DNA of 64,000 bases from Oscillospiraceae bacterium (lineage in GTDB: Bacteria; Bacillota; Clostridia; Oscillospirales; Oscillospiraceae). The position numbers and the translations under genes are program-made. The notes below the pieces were generated by a model. It was not told the DNA's origin and did not search any database. It saw only the letters and a list, made by a program, of their open reading frames with translations. The stretch lies in the NCBI GenBank assembly GCA_021771635.1, contig JAETOQ010000003.1, positions 1-64,000 on the forward strand, read 5' to 3'. Positions 4,595-61,747 of this stretch are shown in pieces. Each line of letters starts with the position of its first letter. The first letter of the stretch is position 1.

Positions 4595-4619
4595 GTGATT
4601 CAGGTCCTCCTATGATAAT

Positions 4620-4875
4620 GTCTGCTGAATAAACCGCAAATCGGTTTATTCGCGCGGCGGCAGCCGCGCAATTCCATAAAACCGGCTCAAAGGAGCCGCT
4701 TTTATGGAATCCAGCCATTGTTACAATGCGTATTTCCACCGGTAGCGCTGAGACGCACCAGTGGCTGGTGCAAGGCTTTTGGACAATTTCGTTCAAAAAC
4801 CTTGCACTTGAACAAAGCCTATTGCTCTTGAAAGTTGGCTTTCAAGACTTTCGGCGTTGTTCAATACGCATTATG
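4620..4875. repeat. Intergenic multi-hairpin palindromic mosaic
   Basis: Consecutive stems: GAATAAACCGcaaatCGGTTTATTC; GCGCGGCggcaGCCGCGC; ATTCCATAAAA..GGCTC..GAGCC..TTTTATGGAAT; outer AATGCGTATT...AATACGCATT. Confidence 0.75.
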
Positions 4876-4928
4876 ATAAAGTATCTGATCCCATCCGCAT
4901 GACTGGGACAGCTGCTCTGAGACAGGCG

Positions 4929-23808: not shown

Positions 23809-23970
23809 GAACCTGTATTCATAACCGTTGATCGCCGTCTGAGCGGTCTTTTTCCCGCCATACTGCGTCGCTTTCCCTTGCCATACGTCAGTATGGCTGC
23901 GAAAAATCTCCTTGTCTGTCGGGAAAAATCCTCGCCCCTCCAGCATTCCCCCGGTTATGAATGCAGGTTC
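23809..23970. repeat. MITE-like dispersed repeat, copy 2 (complete)
   Basis: TIRs GAACCTGTATTCATAACCG / CGGTTATGAATGCAGGTTC; flanked by TTA on both sides; internal GCCATACgtcaGTATGGC. Confidence 0.88.
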
Positions 23971-25614
23971 TTACAGATGGAGATACCGCCCGCCGTTCCG
24001 CCGGTAAAGACGGTGAGAGATGGAGAGCACGGTGCGGCCCTGAGCCGCCTTCTGCAGGGCGGTCAGAACGGCGCGCTCCGTATCGGCATCCAGATTGGCG
24101 GTGATCTCGTCCAGCAGGAGAATGACCGGGTCTGCGGCCACGGCCCTGGCGACCGCCAGGAGCTGGCGCTCTCCCTGGGAAAACAGCGTTTCCGTGCAGG
24201 GGGTGTCATAGCCTTGCTTCAGGCGGGAGATGGTTTCATGGAGGCCTGCCATTCTGGCGGCGGATATCACCTGCTCCCGGGAGATGGAGCCATCCCACAG
24301 GGTGATCTGGTCCGCCACAGTGCCCGGAACCAGGTAAAAGGACTGCTCCACATAGCCGAAGAGCCTGCGCTTGACGGCACTTGGGATTTTGTCCGCATCG
24401 GCGCCAAAGACGCGGACACTTCCGCTGCCCGGGGAATAGAGACCCAGCAGCAGCTTGAACACGGTGCTCTTTCCCGCGCCTGTCCGCCCGGTGAGGGTGA
24501 CGGTCTCACCGGGAACCACTGTGAAGCCGCAGTGATGCAGGACCTGCTGGCTGTCGCCGTAGCTGAACGCCACATCCGTCAGCTGGACGGCCGGCTCCCC
24601 GCTGGACAGGAGGGCTTCCAGTGTGATGGTATTGTCCGTGTCCGGCTGCTGGGGTTCCACAAGGAATTCCTGGATGCGCCGGACGCCTGCCACGGCGGAC
24701 TGGATGCTCTGGATCTCCATGCCGACGCTCTCCAGAGGCTCAAACACCTTGCCCACATAGGCAATGACCGCTACGGCGGTTCCCACCGACATCCCGAAGA
24801 GCGCCTGCATCTCTCCGCCCAGGGAGGCGGCGGTCATCATGACGGCCACCACCACGGCACTGACAGTCAGGATGATGGGGGAGTAGATGGCGTCATAGAA
24901 GTTGGATTTCTCCATAGCCCGGTAGCTCTTCTGGATGGCCTGGTCATACCGTTCCTCCATATACCGCTCCCTGCGGTAGGTGTGGATCATGCGGATGTTC
25001 CGAATGGTCTCGGGAACGTGCTGGCTGACCTGGCCCACCGCCGCCCGGTTATCCAGCTGGGCTTTCAGCATCCGCCTTTGGAAGATGCGGGTCATGGCAA
25101 ACAGCAAAGGCGTGACCAGCACCAGCAGTCCGCCCAGTCCGGGGCTTTTGACAAAGATGACGGCCAGAATACCGGCGATTTTGCACACGTCCACCACCAT
25201 GCCGATGACGCCGGAGGCAAACAGGGCCTCCACGGTGTCCACATCCCCGACGAACCGGGAGACCGTGGCGCCCGGGGCCTGGGCGGTGAAATAGGCGGCG
25301 GGGAGGTGGGACAGCTTGGCGCACATGGCGCGGCGGAGGGCGCGGGTGATCTTCTGACCGAATACGGTGATGAGGAACGCCTGCGCGGCGTCAAACAGGC
25401 CGGAGGCGGCCGCCGCCCCAAAGTACAGCAGGGCCAGCCGAAGGGAAATACTTCCGCCGGAGGTCAGCGTGTTGACGATGTTCTCCAGCACCAGCGGCGG
25501 GAGCAGCGCGAAGAGAATGGAACCCGCCACAGCCAGCAGCAGGCCCAGCATCAGCAGTTTGGACCGCAGGACGACGGAGCGGAGGATGGTCCAAAGAGAG
25601 GCCTTACGCTTCAT
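23971..25614 (-). CDS. ABC transporter ATP-binding/permease protein (exporter type)
   Basis: TLTGRTGAGKSTVFKLLLGL; SQGERQLLAVARAVAADPVILLLDEITANLD. Confidence 0.93.
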   Translation of the reverse strand: MKRKASLWTILRSVVLRSKLLMLGLLLAVAGSILFALLPPLVLENIVNTLTSGGSISLRLALLYFGAAAASGLFDAAQAFLITVFGQKITRALRRAMCAKLSHLPAAYFTAQAPGATVSRFVGDVDTVEALFASGVIGMVVDVCKIAGILAVIFVKSPGLGGLLVLVTPLLFAMTRIFQRRMLKAQLDNRAAVGQVSQHVPETIRNIRMIHTYRRERYMEERYDQAIQKSYRAMEKSNFYDAIYSPIILTVSAVVVAVMMTAASLGGEMQALFGMSVGTAVAVIAYVGKVFEPLESVGMEIQSIQSAVAGVRRIQEFLVEPQQPDTDNTITLEALLSSGEPAVQLTDVAFSYGDSQQVLHHCGFTVVPGETVTLTGRTGAGKSTVFKLLLGLYSPGSGSVRVFGADADKIPSAVKRRLFGYVEQSFYLVPGTVADQITLWDGSISREQVISAARMAGLHETISRLKQGYDTPCTETLFSQGERQLLAVARAVAADPVILLLDEITANLDADTERAVLTALQKAAQGRTVLSISHRLYRRNGGRYLHL

Positions 25615-28213: not shown

Positions 28214-28490
28214 ACGAAATACGAAGAAGGGAACAAGTAACCTGGTTCGCTCCGCTTTCAGAGAATTGCCGGTTGGTGCAAGGCAATAAGCGCCGGATAA
28301 GGTGAAATCATCCTGGAGTAGCCTGCTGAAGGAGAACCTGTTAGGCAGTGCCGGGCCGCACCCGTTACAGTGCAGGGCTTGTTGGAGCCTGCTGAGATGG
28401 CGGCGCATGATACGCCGTTAACAAGAGTGGTACCGCGAAGGATCTTCAGCCTTTGCCTCTTGATTTGCAAGAGGCAAAGGCTTTTTTCAT
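28214..28490 (+). ncRNA. T-box leader (probable Ile specifier) upstream of ilvC
   Basis: AGAGTGGTACCGCG T-box sequence (28424-28437), terminator GCCTTTGCCTCTTgatttgcAAGAGGCAAAGGC-TTTTTT; GGTGAA-ATC-ATCC candidate specifier (28307-28309). Confidence 0.9.
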
Positions 28491-33155: not shown

Positions 33156-33314
33156 CGGGACCTCAGGCTGTCGATAAACCAGAAAGGTCAGGAAAACGGG
33201 AAGGAGGGGTGTGCGCGGCTGGCCCGCAGGCCGTTTCGGAGCGCAACCGGGCGCGGCCCGGCTCTTAGCGCGGAGATGAACCCAGGAAGGGTGCCCTGCG
33301 CCATTCAAATCAAC

Positions 33315-33418
33315 AGATTTCAGAACTTTTTAAAAGTTCTGAAATCTTAAGCAGCTTGTCGAAAAGACTTTTTCGACAAGCTGAGGTCCGCCTGATTTTT
33401 GATCAGGCGGACCTTTTT
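33315..33418. repeat. Triple tandem hairpin array; last hairpin is terminator-like
   Basis: AGATTTCAGAACTTTTtAAAAGTTCTGAAATCT; CAGCTTGTCGAAAAgacTTTTTCGACAAGCTG; AGGTCCGCCTGATtttttgATCAGGCGGACCTTTTT. Confidence 0.8.
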
Positions 33419-35626: not shown

Positions 35627-36856
35627 TTACCGCACGGCGCGGAACCGGGGCAGCCAGGCCCGCAGGACGGAGGAGATCAGCATGGCGCCCACGGACAGCG
35701 CGGCGGCAAAGCCCAGGGTGTGGAGCAGGGTGGACAGGAACAGGGAGGTCTCACCCGTGATGCAGTACTGCATGGCCTTGTAGATGCCGGAGCCGGGCAC
35801 CAGCGGGAGCAGGGCCACCTGCAGATACCCGGTGACCGGACAGTGCCGGACCCGGGCCATCAGCTCCGAATAGGCGCTGATGGACATGGCCGCCAGGAAG
35901 GCGGAAAAGATGTCGGATCGGAGGACTTCCATGGACAGCAGGTAGACCAGCCAGCCCAGGGCCGCCCCCAGCCCGCAGATCAGGATGCCGAGGCCCTGGA
36001 TGTTGAATTCGATGCCAAAGCCCACGCAGGCGAAAAACGCCCACAGGCAGGGGAGCAGATACGCGCCCGTCACCGCCTGGGCGGCTGGAGCGGCGCCCCA
36101 CAGCCCCTGCCCGATCAACAGCGGCAGGGCGGTGCCCAGGGCGATGGCGGTTGCTACCAGCAGGGTCTCGGCGGTGCGGGTCAGACCGGAGATCAGGTCA
36201 CCCGCCATGATCTCCCGCATGGCGTTGGTCAGCGCCATGCCGGGCACCAGGACCATCAGCGTGGCGATGGTGATGACATCCGGGCTCCGCCCCCAGCCGA
36301 TGTGGACCAGGACCAGCGCCAGCAGGGAGGCCACGGCGGAGCAGACCACCGTGCGGAAGAAGATGTTGGAGCCGATGAAGGCACGGCCGAACAGGACGCA
36401 GACGCCCACCGCCAGACCGGCGACGGCGGCGCAGAGGCAGTCCTGGATGCCGCCGCTGAAAAAGAGGGCAAAAAAGGCGGGAGCCATCATATAGCCCAGC
36501 AGGGTCATGCGGGGAGAAAAGGCCCGGCAGTTCTCCGTCAGGCCGTCCACCAGCCGCTGGGCCTCCTCCACCGGCGGCGTCTCCCGGCACAGGCGGCGGC
36601 ACAGGCCGTTGCACCGCTCCAGCAGTTCGATATCCGTGCCGTGGGCAGGGATGCGGTACATCTGCGTGATGGGCGTCCCATCCGGGGTGTTGATGCTGAC
36701 GATCAGACAGCTGGGGATGGAAAAGACCTGGGGCTCCAGGCCGTAGGCGGTCAGCAGGCGGTTCACGGATTCCTCCACCCGGTAGATCTCCGCTCCGCTG
36801 GCCATCAGCTGGCGGCCCAGCTGGGCGGACATATTCAGCAGCTTATAGTAATCCAT
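35627..36856 (-). CDS. Threonine/serine exporter (ThrE) family protein, fused two-domain type
   Basis: GAEIYRVEESVNRLLTAYG...VFSIPSCLIVSI; polytopic C-terminal segment with VPGMALTNAMREIMAGD and LVPGSGIYKAM. Confidence 0.88.
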   Translation of the reverse strand: MDYYKLLNMSAQLGRQLMASGAEIYRVEESVNRLLTAYGLEPQVFSIPSCLIVSINTPDGTPITQMYRIPAHGTDIELLERCNGLCRRLCRETPPVEEAQRLVDGLTENCRAFSPRMTLLGYMMAPAFFALFFSGGIQDCLCAAVAGLAVGVCVLFGRAFIGSNIFFRTVVCSAVASLLALVLVHIGWGRSPDVITIATLMVLVPGMALTNAMREIMAGDLISGLTRTAETLLVATAIALGTALPLLIGQGLWGAAPAAQAVTGAYLLPCLWAFFACVGFGIEFNIQGLGILICGLGAALGWLVYLLSMEVLRSDIFSAFLAAMSISAYSELMARVRHCPVTGYLQVALLPLVPGSGIYKAMQYCITGETSLFLSTLLHTLGFAAALSVGAMLISSVLRAWLPRFRAVR

Positions 36857-36874
36857 GGCGGCCTCCTTGTCGAT

Positions 36875-37050
36875 ATAGTCGGCACACTTGAAAATCGGTC
36901 AATACCGATTTTCTGACAGCGGCAGAGCCGCTGTCGGGCGCCGCCCGTGCGCTGACTATGAAGTCTGACGCAAGGCCGCTTTGCGGCCTTGTGGGGTGAG
37001 ATGGCTCCCCCGCAAGTTGAAAAGATTTTACTTCTTTTCAACTGCGTCAA
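36875..37050. repeat. Two tandem cloverleaf-like palindromic elements
   Basis: Element 1 outer ATAGTCGGCAC/GTGCGCTGACTAT with hairpins GAAAATCGGT/ACCGATTTTC and GACAGCGGC/GCCGCTGTC; element 2 outer GACGCA/TGCGTC with AAGGCCGC/GCGGCCTT, GGGG.GAG/CTCCCC, AGTTGAAAAG/CTTTTCAACT. Confidence 0.75.
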
Positions 37051-37163
37051 CTATAACACCCTCAAGATACCATGTTTTCGCAAAATTGCAAGGGGAAAGA
37101 CAGGGGCAGGGCGATTTGCGGAGACGTTAACGTGCCCGTGGCCCTTTGTGTTTCTGCAAAACA

Positions 37164-37204: not shown

Positions 37205-38011
37205 TCATGCCATTTCCAAGACCTGCACCTCATAGATGCAGTCCTTGAAACTTGTGAAGTTGTCCTCATATTCGTTGGCCAGGGCCAGACACGGTGCCGC
37301 CGCGTCCCGGAAATACTGGCGGACAAAGGTGCTGTCAAAGGGCTCCGACAGGATGCGGGACTGGGTGCAGAAATAGGTGCCCGCCGGAATGCGCATCAGA
37401 TTGGGGCACCGGATCTCAGGCAGTTCCCGCAGATATACAAAGTAATGGGTGGGAACGATCTTTCCGGCCAGCAGGGAGGGGAAGTCCAGCAGATACCCGT
37501 TCTGGCGCAGAAAACGCGTGTGGGAGAAAGCCTCGCTGTGCTGCAGCTTCGTGAGACGTTTCCCGGCGGTCCCATAGATATCCTCGCCGGGGGCCAGGGG
37601 CTCCGCCAGCAGATATCGTTCCGGCTCCTTTACCTTATAAGGCAGATTGTTATAGTTGTAGTAATCGATGTGGTCGTAGTACTCCACATACCAATCCAGC
37701 TCTTTCAAAAGCTCCTGCAGATGATCCAATTCTTTTTGGATCGATTGCCGCCGCCGGATCAAAAACTGCTTGAACTGCCCAATATCATTGGAGGCCAGAG
37801 CCTCCCGGATATCCTCCAGACGGAAGCCGAAGCGCTGTAAGTACTTGACACGGGAGATGTAGTGGATCTGATCGTAGCTGTAATAACGGTAGCCGGTTTT
37901 CTGGTCGGTGTAGTGGGGGACCACAATGCCGCTTTTGTCGTAGAAGCGGATCGTTTGGGGAGACATATTCAAGAGTGCGGCGACTTCACCGATGGTATAA
38001 CGTTCCTTCAT
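37205..38011 (-). CDS. MerR family transcriptional regulator (multidrug/effector-binding type)
   Basis: MKERYTIGEVAALLNMSPQTIRFYDKSGIVVPHYTDQKTGYRYYSYDQIHYI. Confidence 0.93.
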   Translation of the reverse strand: MKERYTIGEVAALLNMSPQTIRFYDKSGIVVPHYTDQKTGYRYYSYDQIHYISRVKYLQRFGFRLEDIREALASNDIGQFKQFLIRRRQSIQKELDHLQELLKELDWYVEYYDHIDYYNYNNLPYKVKEPERYLLAEPLAPGEDIYGTAGKRLTKLQHSEAFSHTRFLRQNGYLLDFPSLLAGKIVPTHYFVYLRELPEIRCPNLMRIPAGTYFCTQSRILSEPFDSTFVRQYFRDAAAPCLALANEYEDNFTSFKDCIYEVQVLEMA

Positions 38012-38296
38012 AGAGACACCTCCCTGCATACCAGTATTACAAAAAAGATCGAAAAAGTCTACACTTAACTACAAGGTTTGACTCAAAAAATCACAAAAAA
38101 TAGCTGGATGTCACAAAATAGATCCAAAAAATTTTATCAAATTTTACAAGGGATTCCCGTTGACCTTATAGCGGGGAAAAGCAATACACTGATGCCAAAG
38201 GGGTTCGCAGCTGGTATTTTTTCAAAAATACGGGCCTGAGAACTCCGATAGGCACCCTGCGCGAGAGAAAAGAGAAAAAGAAGAGAGGTATTACAA

Positions 38297-47235: not shown

Positions 47236-47995
47236 TCTGATCCAGGTCACCGACTTGAAGAAACACTACAACAAAGGCGCCATCAAGGCTCTGGACGGCG
47301 TCACTGTGGATATCAACCGGGGCGACGTGATGGTGGTCATCGGCCCCTCCGGCTCCGGCAAGTCCACCTTCCTCCGCAGCCTGAATCTGCTGGAGGAACC
47401 CACCGGCGGCTCCATCGTGTTCGACGGCGTGGATATCACCAAGAAAAAGACGCGGAACGCCGAGGGAAAGATGGTCAAGCTGGACATCGACCAGCACCGC
47501 CAGAAGATGGGCATGGTGTTCCAGCACTTCAACCTGTTTCCCCACATGACCATTCTGGACAACATGACACTGGCCCCCATCAAGGTCAAGCATATGGACC
47601 GGGCCGCCGCCGAGGAAAAGGCTCTGGCCCTGCTGGACCGGGTGGGTCTGAAAGACCGTGCCGGGGCGTATCCCATCCAGCTCTCCGGCGGCCAGAAGCA
47701 GCGGGTGGCCATCGTCCGGGCCCTTGCCATGGAGCCGGAGGTCATGCTGTTTGATGAGCCCACCTCCGCTCTGGACCCCGAGATGGTGGGCGAGGTATTG
47801 GAGGTCATGAAGCAGCTGGCTCATGATGGCATGACCATGGTGGTGGTCACCCATGAGATGGGCTTTGCCCGGGAGGTGGGCAGCCGTGTGCTGTTCATGG
47901 CGGACGGCAAGCTGCTGGAGGAGGGTGCGCCGGCGGACATCTTCGGCAATCCCCAGCACCCCAGACTGCAGGACTTTCTGAGCAAGGTACTTTGA
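47219..47995 (+). CDS. Amino-acid ABC transporter ATP-binding protein
   Basis: [66 protein letters not shown]. Confidence 0.97.
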
Positions 47996-47999
47996 TCTC

Positions 48000-48260
48000 G
48001 AGGGGGGAGCGGGCTATCACCGTTGCGGCATTACGATTCCCGGCCCTTATCAGGGCCGCCAATCGTGCCGCTGCCTCAAAAGCGGTTCGCTTCATCCGCC
48101 GCTGGCGGCGCTTCACCGCTTTCCCCTCGACCTCCCCCTCGCACCAGTGACATCGGTCACTGGTGGACGCCGCCCAAGGAGGCTGAGTCAATGTATTTTT
48201 GCCAGGTACAGAAGGTGAATTGCCCCAAGGGGCAAGAGAAGCCCCTCTGGAGGGCGCCCT
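48000..48260. repeat. Intergenic palindromic mosaic
   Basis: GGCA..ACGATT / AATCGT.GCC around GGCCCttatcaGGGCC; AAAGCGG..CCGCTTT around GCCGCtggCGGC; CACCAGTGACatcgGTCACTGGTG. Confidence 0.65.
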
Positions 48261-48304
48261 GACAAAAATGATTTCAAATTTTTATCGTGCAAAAATACTG
48301 ACAA

Positions 48305-48371: not shown

Positions 48372-49814
48372 ATGATAAAAGAAAAGCAGGCGGCTATCCG
48401 TGCCGTTGCGGAAAAAGCGGGCCTGGTGGCGGAAGTGGCGGACCACATCTGGGAATATGCCGAGTTGTCCCTCCAGGAGGAGAAGTCCGCCGCACTGTAC
48501 TGCGAGGTGCTGGAGCGGGAGGGCTTTGCCGTGGAGAAGGGGATCTGCAACATTCCCACGGCGTTTTCCGCGTCCTATGGCAGCGGGCGGCCCATCATCG
48601 GCATCCTGGCGGAGTATGACGCCCTGTCCGGCCTGTCCCAGAAGGCGGGCAGCGTGGAGCGGGAGGAGCTGGTTCCCGGCGGCTGCGGCCATGGCTGCGG
48701 ACACAATCTGCTGGGCGCCGGGGCTTTTGCCGCGGCGCTCGGAGTCAAAGCCTATCTGGAAATGACGAAGCAGCCCGGGACCGTGGTGCTCTACGGCTGC
48801 CCCGGCGAGGAGGGCGGTGCCGCCAAGGCGTTCATGGCCCGGGACGGCCTGTGGTACGGCCTGGACGCGGCTCTGACCTGGCACCCGGAGGACACCAACG
48901 AGGTGGTCACCGGCTCCACCAACTCCTGCATCCAGACCCAGTACAAATTCACCGGCGTGGCAGCCCATGCCGCCGGGGACCCGGACCGGGGCCGCAGCGC
49001 CCTGGACGCTGTGGAGCTGATGAACATCGGCGTCCAGTTCCTGCGGGAGCACATGTCCTCCAAGGCCCGCATCCATTACGCCATCACCGACGCCGGCGGC
49101 CGCAGCCCCAACGTGGTCCAGCCCCGGGCCAGCGTGCTGTATATGGTCCGGTCCAACCACGTGGCGGAGGCGGTGGAGCTGCAGAAGCGGGTGGACCAAA
49201 TCGCGGAGGGCGCGGCGCTGATGACGGGGACCACCTTTGAAAAGCAGTTTATCGACGGCCTGGCGGACACGGTGACGAATCACACGCTGGAGACGCTGCT
49301 TCACCGGAACTTCACGGAGCTGGGCGTGCCCGGCTATACGGCGGAAGAGCACACCTTTGCCGACGCACTGGCAGAGACTTATCCCGGCAGCGATAGCATA
49401 CCGGGCATCGGCGCCCAGTATGACGCCACTTACGGGGAACAGGCCAAAGCCCTGCGGGCCAAGGCCGGCCACGCCATGAACGACTTTCTGCTGCCGCTGT
49501 ATCAGGGGGAGGCGTTCCAGCCCGGCTCCACCGATGTGGGCGACGTCAGCTGGCAGACGCCCACGGCCCAGATCCATGTGGCGGCGTGGCCCAACGGCTG
49601 TCCCGGCCACAGCTGGCAGAATGTCTCCTGCGGCCGGACGGACATCGGCCATAAGGCTGCCCTCCACGCCGGAAAGGTGCTGGCGGCGGCCGCCATCGAC
49701 CTGCTGGCGGACCCGTCGCTGCTGACAGCGGCTCGGGCAGAGTTCCAAAAGCGGACGGAGACAGGCTATACCTGCCCCACTCCGGCGGATGCCGTGCCGG
49801 TGGTCCCGGACTGA
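48372..49814 (+). CDS. M20 family amidohydrolase/peptidase (AbgB-like)
   Basis: GCGHGCGHNLLGAGAFAAALGVK; LTWHPEDTNEV; AAHAAGDPDRGRSALDAVELMNIGVQFLREHM. Confidence 0.93.
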   Translation: MIKEKQAAIRAVAEKAGLVAEVADHIWEYAELSLQEEKSAALYCEVLEREGFAVEKGICNIPTAFSASYGSGRPIIGILAEYDALSGLSQKAGSVEREELVPGGCGHGCGHNLLGAGAFAAALGVKAYLEMTKQPGTVVLYGCPGEEGGAAKAFMARDGLWYGLDAALTWHPEDTNEVVTGSTNSCIQTQYKFTGVAAHAAGDPDRGRSALDAVELMNIGVQFLREHMSSKARIHYAITDAGGRSPNVVQPRASVLYMVRSNHVAEAVELQKRVDQIAEGAALMTGTTFEKQFIDGLADTVTNHTLETLLHRNFTELGVPGYTAEEHTFADALAETYPGSDSIPGIGAQYDATYGEQAKALRAKAGHAMNDFLLPLYQGEAFQPGSTDVGDVSWQTPTAQIHVAAWPNGCPGHSWQNVSCGRTDIGHKAALHAGKVLAAAAIDLLADPSLLTAARAEFQKRTETGYTCPTPADAVPVVPD

Positions 49815-49817
49815 TAC

Positions 49818-50135
49818 GATTCTTCCGCAGAAAATAGATATTTTCTGCGGAAGAAGGCGTCGCTAAGCGCGCCGCCCATTTGTGCCACAGGCACAAATGC
49901 CGTCGAACCTGTATTCACAACCGTTGAACGCCGCCTGAGGGGCCTTTTTCCCGCCATACGGCGTCGCTTTCCTTTGCCATACGTCAGTATGGCTGCGGAA
50001 AATCTCCTTGTCTGACGAGAAAGATCCTCGTCCATCCAGCATTCCCCGGTTATGAATACAGGTTCTAAGACTTCAACGCGCCTTCGGCGCTATAAAAAGC
50101 AAACTTCGTCTACTTTTTAATGAAGTCTAGTATGA
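49818..50135. repeat. Intergenic palindromic mosaic interrupted by MITE copy 3
   Basis: TTCTTCCGCAGAAAATAgaTATTTTCTGCGGAAGAA; CATTTGTGCC..GGCACAAATG; AGACTTCA...TGAAGTCTAGTATGA. Inverted counterpart without the MITE at 57194-57355. Confidence 0.85.
49905..50065. repeat. MITE-like dispersed repeat, copy 3 (complete)
   Basis: GAACCTGTATTCACAACCG...CGGTTATGAATACAGGTTC; near-identical to copies 1 and 2. Confidence 0.88.
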
Positions 50136-56957: not shown

Positions 56958-57084
56958 AAACCACCGTATATCCAGTGGGATGCTGCATAGCAAAAAGAAA
57001 AGCGCTGTGGGAAACAAGAGTTTCCCACAGCGCTTTTTTGATATTGCATGATACGTAAACCTGTTAAAAAGATTGGAGATCCTT

Positions 57085-57355
57085 TGATAGCGCAAAGCGC
57101 GTCGGTTTTTTATGAGATGTGGCGGCGTACGTTTCGTGCGCCACCCGCGCGGCACGCGGAATTTCAAATAAAGTACTTTATTTGAAATTAGTATCATACT
57201 AGACTTCATTAAAAGTAGACGAAGTCTGCTTTTTATAGCGCCGAAGGCGCGTTGAAGTCTTATGAGACGGCATTTGTGCCTGTGGCACAAATGGGCGGCG
57301 CGCTTAGCGACACCTTCTTCCACGGAAAATATCTATTTTCTGTGGAAGAATAGTA
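57085..57355. repeat. Intergenic palindromic mosaic (MITE-free, inverted counterpart of 49818-50135)
   Basis: AATTTCAAATAAAGTACTTTATTTGAAATT; TCATACTAGACTTCA...TGAAGTCTTATGAGAC; CATTTGTGCC/GGCACAAATG; TTCTTCCACGGAAAATA/TATTTTCTGTGGAAGAA. Confidence 0.85.
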
Positions 57356-58477
57356 TCAGAGGCTGATGAGGTTTTTCTCAGAATCCGGATCAAACAGGTG
57401 GATGGAGTCAGAACGGAAGGTGAAGTTCATGGCGGTGCCATAGGTGATGCCGCCCCGCAGCTCGGCGGGCAGATCGCCGGTGGGGACACGCAGGACCACG
57501 TCCTTGCCGTTGCTGGTGACGTGCAGATAGTATTCGCTGCCCATCATCTCGGAGACCTCCACCGTGCCGGTGACCGTGCCGGGAGTGCCGGCGGGGGCGA
57601 AGCGGATATGCTCGGGCCGGATGCCCAGGATCACGTCCTGCTCACCATGACCGGCCAGGGCCTTCTGGATCTCGGCAGAAAGGGCGACATCAACGCCGCC
57701 CACCTGGGCGTGATAGCTCTCCTCGCCGTCCTTGACCAGCTTGGCGTCGAAGAAGTTCATCTGAGGCGTGCCGATGAAGCCGGCGACAAAGATATTGGTG
57801 GGATGGTCGAACACCTGCTGGGGCGTGCCGATCTGCTGGATGAAACCGTCCTTCATGATGACGATGCGGTCAGCCAGTGTCATAGCCTCAGTCTGGTCAT
57901 GGGTGACGTAGACGAAGGTGGTGTTGATGCGCTGACGCAGCTTGATGATCTCGGCGCGCATCTCGTTGCGCAGCTTGGCGTCCAGGTTGGACAGAGGTTC
58001 GTCCATCAGCAGCACCTTGGGCTCACGGACGATGGCACGGCCGATGGCCACACGCTGGCGCTGGCCGCCGGACAGGGCCTTGGGCTTCCGGTCCAGATAC
58101 TGGGTGATGCCCAGAATCTCAGCCGCCTGATCTACCCGCTGCTTGATCTCGGCGGCGGGGACCTTCTTCAGCTTCAGGGGGAACTCCATGTTCTCGCGAA
58201 CTGTCATGTGGGGATACAGGGCGTAGCTCTGGAACACCATGGCGATGTCCCGGTCCTTGGGCTCCACGTCGTTGCAAAGTTTGTCATCGATGTACAGCTC
58301 GCCCTTGCTAATCTCCTCCAGGCCGGCCACCATGCGCAGTGTGGTGGACTTGCCGCAGCCGGAGGGGCCGACCAGGACGATAAATTCCTTATCGGCGATC
58401 TCCAGGTTGAAGTCTGTGACTGCGGTGACGCCTCCGTCATAGATCTTGTAGATGTTCTTCAGGCTGACAGTTGACAT
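57356..58477 (-). CDS. ugpC: Sugar ABC transporter ATP-binding protein (UgpC/MsmX type)
   Basis: VLVGPSGCGKSTTLRMVAGLEEISKGELYID; LSGGQRQRVAIGRAIVREPKVLLMDEPLSNLDAKLR; C-terminal TOBE region. Confidence 0.95.
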   Translation of the reverse strand: MSTVSLKNIYKIYDGGVTAVTDFNLEIADKEFIVLVGPSGCGKSTTLRMVAGLEEISKGELYIDDKLCNDVEPKDRDIAMVFQSYALYPHMTVRENMEFPLKLKKVPAAEIKQRVDQAAEILGITQYLDRKPKALSGGQRQRVAIGRAIVREPKVLLMDEPLSNLDAKLRNEMRAEIIKLRQRINTTFVYVTHDQTEAMTLADRIVIMKDGFIQQIGTPQQVFDHPTNIFVAGFIGTPQMNFFDAKLVKDGEESYHAQVGGVDVALSAEIQKALAGHGEQDVILGIRPEHIRFAPAGTPGTVTGTVEVSEMMGSEYYLHVTSNGKDVVLRVPTGDLPAELRGGITYGTAMNFTFRSDSIHLFDPDSEKNLISL

Positions 58478-58667
58478 AGTATATGACCGTGGCTCCGGTG
58501 CCTCCGCACCAAAAGCCTCCCCGCCGGGAGAGTATCCCCCGTGGGATTACGGCAGGTCTCCACACTGCCGCACCGCCGGTTAACGGATTATTTCCTCCTT
58601 TTTTATGGCTGACCTGCCGCTATAAAAATGGAGTAGCGGCAGGCGCCTGATTCAAAAATTTGGGGGA

Positions 58668-61485: not shown

Positions 61486-61541
61486 AACGAACAAACGCTC
61501 CATTCTTTTTCAATATACCGGAAAATCGCCGTTTAATACTG

Positions 61542-61733
61542 ATTCTTGACAAAACCATTTCGTTTTATCAAGAATGGAAACGCACTTGTGCGTTTCCATT
61601 TTGCACCGTAAACGGTGCAAAATGCGTCTCATAAGAACTTGACGCGCCTCCGGTGCTATATTGGGCAGCCGTTGGCGGCTTCGCCGCTTACGGATGCCGC
61701 ATCCCACTTGCAGGGTAACAAGTTCTAGTATGA
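61542..61733. repeat. Intergenic palindromic mosaic
   Basis: ATTCTTGACAAAAC/GTTTTATCAAGAAT; GGAAACGCACttGTGCGTTTCC; ATTTTGCACCGT/ACGGTGCAAAAT; GTCTCATAAGAACTTG...CAAGTTCTAGTATGA. Confidence 0.8.
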
Positions 61734-61747
61734 CACGGCATTCCCCA

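Follow-up and report, generated by a model that had tools for sequence, protein, structure and literature searches.

The two adjacent folded structures at positions 36875-37050 of the window (the whole stretch of 64,000 nucleotides that was analysed) form a single dispersed repeat of 182 bp, spanning 36874-37055, which is interpreted here, with a probability of roughly 85%, as a gene-less MITE that would be moved in trans by an IS630 transposase, with a body derived from snap-back copying and with hairpin arms kept matching mainly at the DNA level. The element is present at ~33 sites in the 2.8-Mb Oscillospiraceae genome, a count in which the split matches of the genome search were merged by hand, and most copies are 85-96% identical over the full ~185 bp, with element lengths ranging from 175 to 194 bp. 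The alignment of the genome copies stops sharply at TATAGTC and GACTATA. The original prediction had described a multi-hairpin region with similar arrays elsewhere in the window, and it would have been refuted by stems occurring once each in the genome, an outcome that these sites exclude. It had also regarded the structures as two tandem modules, a view that is abandoned here: both halves are present, in a constant order, in the full-length copies, so that two independent modules are ruled out and each structure is half of one element. The arms, which had been thought exchangeable, are unshuffled between copies in this genome and differ between species and subfamilies.

The + strand of the element is defined as the orientation that places CTATGAAGTC in the centre. 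In this orientation the whole element (36874-37055, +) is a dispersed repeat with sharp ends that matches the covariance model from 1 to 184 and includes a copy of the duplicated TA on each side, at 36874-36875 and 37054-37055 (neither assigned a strand), as judged from the duplication shown at other copies, namely the nested insertion L002 and the empty sites L014 and L016; without these flanking TA copies, the mobile unit proper occupies 36876-37053. The terminal inverted repeats (TIRs), TATAGTYNNCRCASTTGAAAA, are 21 nt long, are found at both ends of copies, and are 81% complementary in the window copy, where the left repeat is TATAGTCGGCACACTTGAAAA (36874-36894, +) and the right repeat, read on the - strand, is TATAGTTGACGCAGTTGAAAA (37035-37055). 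The left half (36874-36960, +) folds, with pairs conserved across species, into an outer stem TATAGTCGGCACAC / GTGCGCTGACTATG (TATAGTC.../...GACTATG in the window copy) that encloses three hairpins. Hairpin 1, GAAAATCGGT-CAAT-ACCGATTTTC (36890-36913, +), and hairpin 2, GACAGCGGC-AGA-GCCGCTGTC (36915-36935, +), are supported by the fold and by cross-species pairs, and the short hairpin 3, GGGCGCCGCCC (36936-36946, +), folds, its columns being aligned too poorly for pair counting. The right half (36962-37053, +) likewise folds with conserved pairs, its outer stem AGTC.TGACGCA / TGCGTCA.ACT enclosing hairpin 4, CAAGGCCGC-TTT-GCGGCCTTG (36971-36991, +; the structure model counts its inner part), hairpin 5, TGTGGGGTGAG...CTCCCCCGCA (36990-37014, +; exactly inverted in copies L011 and L013), and hairpin 6, AGTTGAAAAGA-TTTTACT-TCTTTTCAACT (37015-37043, +; cross-species pairs). 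The earlier count of three hairpins in the second structure was thus right, and that of two in the first fell one short by missing GGGCGCCGCCC. Between the halves lies the centre, ACTATGAAGTC (36955-36965, +), in which the inner ends of both halves resemble the TIRs without a terminal TA. Within it CTATGAAG is nearly invariant among 45 elements and its G is invariant in all 45, and the TA is always absent from the inner ends of these elements, as would be expected if the inner ends must stay uncut. The element is flanked by a ThrE (threonine/serine exporter) gene (35627-36856, -; Pfam ThrE and ThrE_2) and a MerR-family regulator gene (37205-38029, -; Pfam MerR_1), and it lies upstream of the ThrE ATG at a distance of ~18 bp, next to the AAGGAGG ribosome-binding site without including it.

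Insertion at TA can be read directly from one copy, L002, which is nested inside a second structured repeat: the uninterrupted repeat reads TTTCTTGATAAAAAGAT and the filled one TTTCTTGATATAGTC...AACTATAAAAAGAT, so that the TA is duplicated. Additionally, the joined flanks of ten copies were compared with 86 genomes of the genus, and relatives are empty, with a single TA, at the positions of L016 and L014, the exact TA being absent in some relatives at the latter; the positions of L003 and L009 are too diverged in relatives to read. Copies are located beside terminators, in leaders and between genes. No gene interrupted by the element was seen with a simple gene finder among the genome copies, and no clear bias in the gene arrangement of insertions emerged. 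That the hairpins are ordinary intrinsic terminators of neighbouring genes is extremely improbable: they do lie between genes, several copies being beside terminator hairpins, but a terminator-like site (a GC-rich stem followed by a T run) is absent from the element on either strand, in agreement with the original view that the structures go beyond simple terminators, and homology is full-length at the ~33 sites and extends to copies in gene leaders. At L014 (G000:C154:3600-3787), a promoter with a LexA-like box (GAACAAAAGTTC) lies on one side of the element and a small gene's ribosome-binding site on the other, an arrangement that may represent an SOS-type leader carrying the whole fold. Two further focal copies, L045 (G000:C131:59659-60005) and L044 (G000:C80:5514-5867), are themselves broken by the structured repeat in which L002 is nested (TAATACTATTTCTTGATAAAAAG...), which in L045 lies in a hairpin loop and is seemingly flanked by a duplicated TA too.

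Because its ends match IS630 elements and its target is TA, the element is assigned, by sequence comparison, to the non-autonomous IS630-type MITEs. In the window's genome (94.7% complete) there is no match to the IS630 transposase domain PF13358 (DDE_3), and no autonomous copy was found there, the terminal-repeat matches being in short copies; the cognate transposase may have been lost or left unassembled. Across the genus, PF13358 has matches in 13 of 86 genomes. One of these, G031, contains a 0.88-kb element (L088) whose ends, TATAGTAAAACCAGTTGAAA and TATAGTTACCACAGTTGAAA, match the MITE and enclose HTH_Tnp_IS630 and DDE_3 frames; the MITE covariance model has no match in G031 itself. In other assemblies, contigs break within the same transposase, right beside the same end (L112, L119, L145 and L181), a pattern suggesting that assemblies often lose a multi-copy IS. 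The IS end TATAGTCACCACAGTTGAAAAG (L145 and L181) is identical over 22 nt to the right end of the MITE L079, the window copy being a weaker match to IS630 ends than L079, and the best-matching IS630 ends were found in genomes that are not among the tested carriers, or at contig ends. MITE carriage is more common in genomes with DDE_3 (7/13) than in those without (17/73; Fisher p 0.04). A 1.65-kb candidate element in G034 (L043) was rejected as two decayed MITEs flanking an ordinary gene, and other IS630 elements in G034 and G102 were rejected because their ends differ. In Lawsonibacter- and Colidextribacter-labelled genomes there are plain MITEs of 160 bp (L150, L161 and L179) that share these ends and lack the hairpin array, so that the importance of the fold could be judged by a natural comparison.

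The palindromic, intergenic and high-copy character of the element is shared with elements of the REP/BIME type, which depend on a Y1 RAYT transposase for their movement, an association that had been put forward originally. The presence of terminal inverted repeats and TA duplication, as in IS630, the match of the ends to IS630 elements, and the degenerate state of the genome's only Y1_Tnp match, a partial reading with two stops, nevertheless leave that explanation with almost no probability. The element is not a tRNA either, as ARAGORN finds no tRNA gene in it.

A covariance model built from 45 dereplicated elements has matches in 24 of the 86 genus members examined, and many of these genomes have at least 20-30 matches among the 30 candidates scored per genome. 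In an order-wide sample of 394 genomes, four genomes besides the window's match, weakly and mostly over shorter stretches, and belong to two other genera. No phage or plasmid record matched.

The fold itself is strongly supported. Window positions 36870-37060 form two adjacent multibranch domains with a z of about -10 relative to dinucleotide shuffles on either strand, and 0 of 200 shuffles are as stable. RNAalifold predicts 40 pairs, 36 of which show two-sided changes. When the double structure is written out explicitly for 45 diverged elements, 92.1% of cells are paired, compared with 37-45% when the partners are slid, and two-sided changes occur in 46 of 62 pairs (shuffle mean 24), figures that are favoured by a structure written from the same 45-element alignment and compared with a shuffle control inflated by relatedness; the gap between real and slid pairing is still very large despite the alignment-derived structure. 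A minimum-energy fold with six hairpins of at least four pairs is obtained for 28 of the 45 elements. Each end matches its own inner copy (82%) better than the opposite end (53-60%), as found in 36/45 elements, so that each half behaves as a snap-back unit. Hairpin 1 of L060 starts with CAGTTGAAAAGCGGTAAA, like an IS630 end, followed by its inverted copy.

The element could alternatively be the same MITE with its fold kept as RNA, which in gene leaders or 3' ends would protect, process or attenuate mRNA; mRNA-level roles of that kind have been proposed for Neisseria NEMIS and pneumococcal BOX. The strong two-sided changes and the location of some copies between promoter and gene (L003, L014 and, adjoining the ThrE ribosome-binding site, the window copy) agree with this explanation, which is nonetheless considered unlikely on several grounds. 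No Rfam relative was found, there being no match at gathering score and the best sub-threshold matches lying far under the cut-off. G-U and A-C cells are about equally frequent, at 72 and 80 across species and 33 and 40 within the genome, and therefore do not indicate that one RNA strand is under selection, in a test that is diluted by the decay of individual copies. Resident copies decay without compensation: arm changes within the genome comprise 81 broken, 40 paired and 4 two-sided paired cases, most being one-sided and unrepaired. Furthermore, the sites are patchy, unconserved and missing at orthologous positions, and the gene arrangement lacks a clear bias. Hairpins or loops are exactly inverted in L011, L013 and L025, which, taken with the equal G-U and A-C numbers, favours correction of the arms at the DNA level (template switching) over RNA selection. 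Arm homogenisation and spacer inversion are reported as marks of template switching in PMC8604942 and PMC8794818. Since most within-genome changes are unrepaired, such arm correction, if it is the cause, would be slow or would act mainly in active lineages.

Against the preferred reading stand the missing DDE_3 match in this genome and the source of the best-matching IS630 ends; moreover, template switching between the arms alone leaves the constant three hairpins per half and the 175-194 bp length unexplained. The fold might instead be needed as DNA, if the transposase or some host protein recognises a cruciform or single-stranded hairpins, so that only folding copies multiply. The retention of layout and length across 24 species while single copies decay, the lack of strand bias and the constant absence of the inner TA are all compatible with such a requirement, but IS630/mariner transposition works on double-stranded ends, internal folds are not known to be necessary for it, and the plain MITEs L150, L161 and L179 share the ends without such hairpins. 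This requirement is accordingly held to be possible and rather doubtful. A similarly tentative standing is given to the broader proposal of a MITE class that would need a fixed double-cloverleaf DNA fold beyond its ends, with arms made and renewed by snap-back template switching at transposon ends.

The mechanism favoured here is that of a MITE mobilised by IS630 and corrected at the DNA level. An IS630-family (Tc1/mariner-like) DDE transposase would act, or would have acted, in trans on the TATAGT... ends, and insertion would take place at TA in intergenic DNA. The body probably originated from snap-back copying of transposon ends, the three hairpins of each half being enclosed between the end and its inverted copy. 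The halves would have been joined back to back with loss of the inner TA, leaving only the outer ends cuttable. Thereafter, the arms would be kept matching mainly as DNA, through template switching between arms, and perhaps also through selection on copies still transposing. The paired layout and its covariation are direct observations, and their persistence would be attributable to these DNA-level causes.

The other arrays that had been likened to the focal region are also dispersed repeats; they belong to other families, without a match to 36874-37055. The array at 4609-4881 is a ~265-bp multi-hairpin repeat with the ends TATGATAATG...CATTATGATA and at least 11 genome copies, and those at 57070-57370 and 61530-61745 are dispersed with few copies each. 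At 33300-33386 there is a repeat of two perfect hairpins with at least 25 copies, many of them ~30 bp from contig ends, which may be the end of a longer, assembly-breaking repeat; an ordinary-looking terminator hairpin (33387-33415) follows it directly. The earlier suggestion of a modular mosaic of palindromes does not hold for the focal element and finds a better candidate, judged from sequence, in the complex hairpin array at 47990-48280, of which the query parts 175-288, 285-372 and 337-442 also occur apart elsewhere in the genome. A further ~165-bp family (49905-50069, 23809-23971 and 1-122) has long terminal inverted repeats GAACCTGTATTCA...TGAATACAGGTTC and at least 25 copies, and its copy at 49905 splits a relative of the 57070-57370 array into two parts, 49811-49904 and 50066-50135. 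Since all of these are multi-copy, the genome contains several short structured repeat families. Two RNAs in the window, a malK-I RNA (58472-58651, -) and a T-box leader (28215-28463, +), score above the Rfam gathering threshold.

These findings indicate that hairpin arrays in Oscillospiraceae, which may readily be mistaken for RNA genes or terminators, can be mobile elements, and some are located in gene leaders. Most arms change sequence in step, and the family thus offers natural data with which selection on structure could be told apart from template-switch arm correction, a question that bears on the reading of covariation as evidence for RNA genes. No description of such elements in Oscillospiraceae, or of cloverleaf MITEs, was found in the open-access literature.

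Among known elements, this one belongs with the bacterial MITEs (short, at less than ~200 bp, non-coding, with TIRs and a target duplication), and by analogy would work like RUP with IS630-Spn1. Ends beginning with TATAGT are also found in the Correia/NEMIS elements of Neisseria. RUP (repeat unit of pneumococcus), 107 bp long and with IS630-Spn1 as its proposed mover (PMC2229807, PMC3049150), is similarly short, gene-less and intergenic, with TA termini, target duplication and ends resembling an IS630 element; it is shorter, however, and folds end to end, whereas the halves of the focal element close on their own inner copies, with three hairpins per half and cross-species covariation. Correia/NEMIS (PMC2229807), likened here by description, is a MITE of ~100-160 bp with TA termini, target duplication and structured transcripts, but its fold is a single end-to-end stem in place of two closed halves. 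BOX of Streptococcus pneumoniae (PMC3049150) is a structured, modular MITE with many copies, some of them transcribed; its boxA/B/C content is variable and its ends are likened to ISSpn2, in contrast to the fixed layout and IS630-like ends described here. The CIR repeats of Caulobacter and Brucella (PMC2229807) share two structured arms with a linker and phylogenetically conserved folds, and differ in sequence, host, the GANTC motif and the lack of a demonstrated target duplication. REP/BIME elements with RAYT are likewise palindromes repeated between genes and paired head to head, but they lack such terminal repeats and TA duplication, and the focal genome lacks an intact Y1 transposase. The unusual feature is a body of two three-hairpin halves, with covariation across species. 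Bacterial MITEs are generally portrayed as simple hairpins that fold end to end, whereas this family keeps a six-hairpin layout across about two dozen species.
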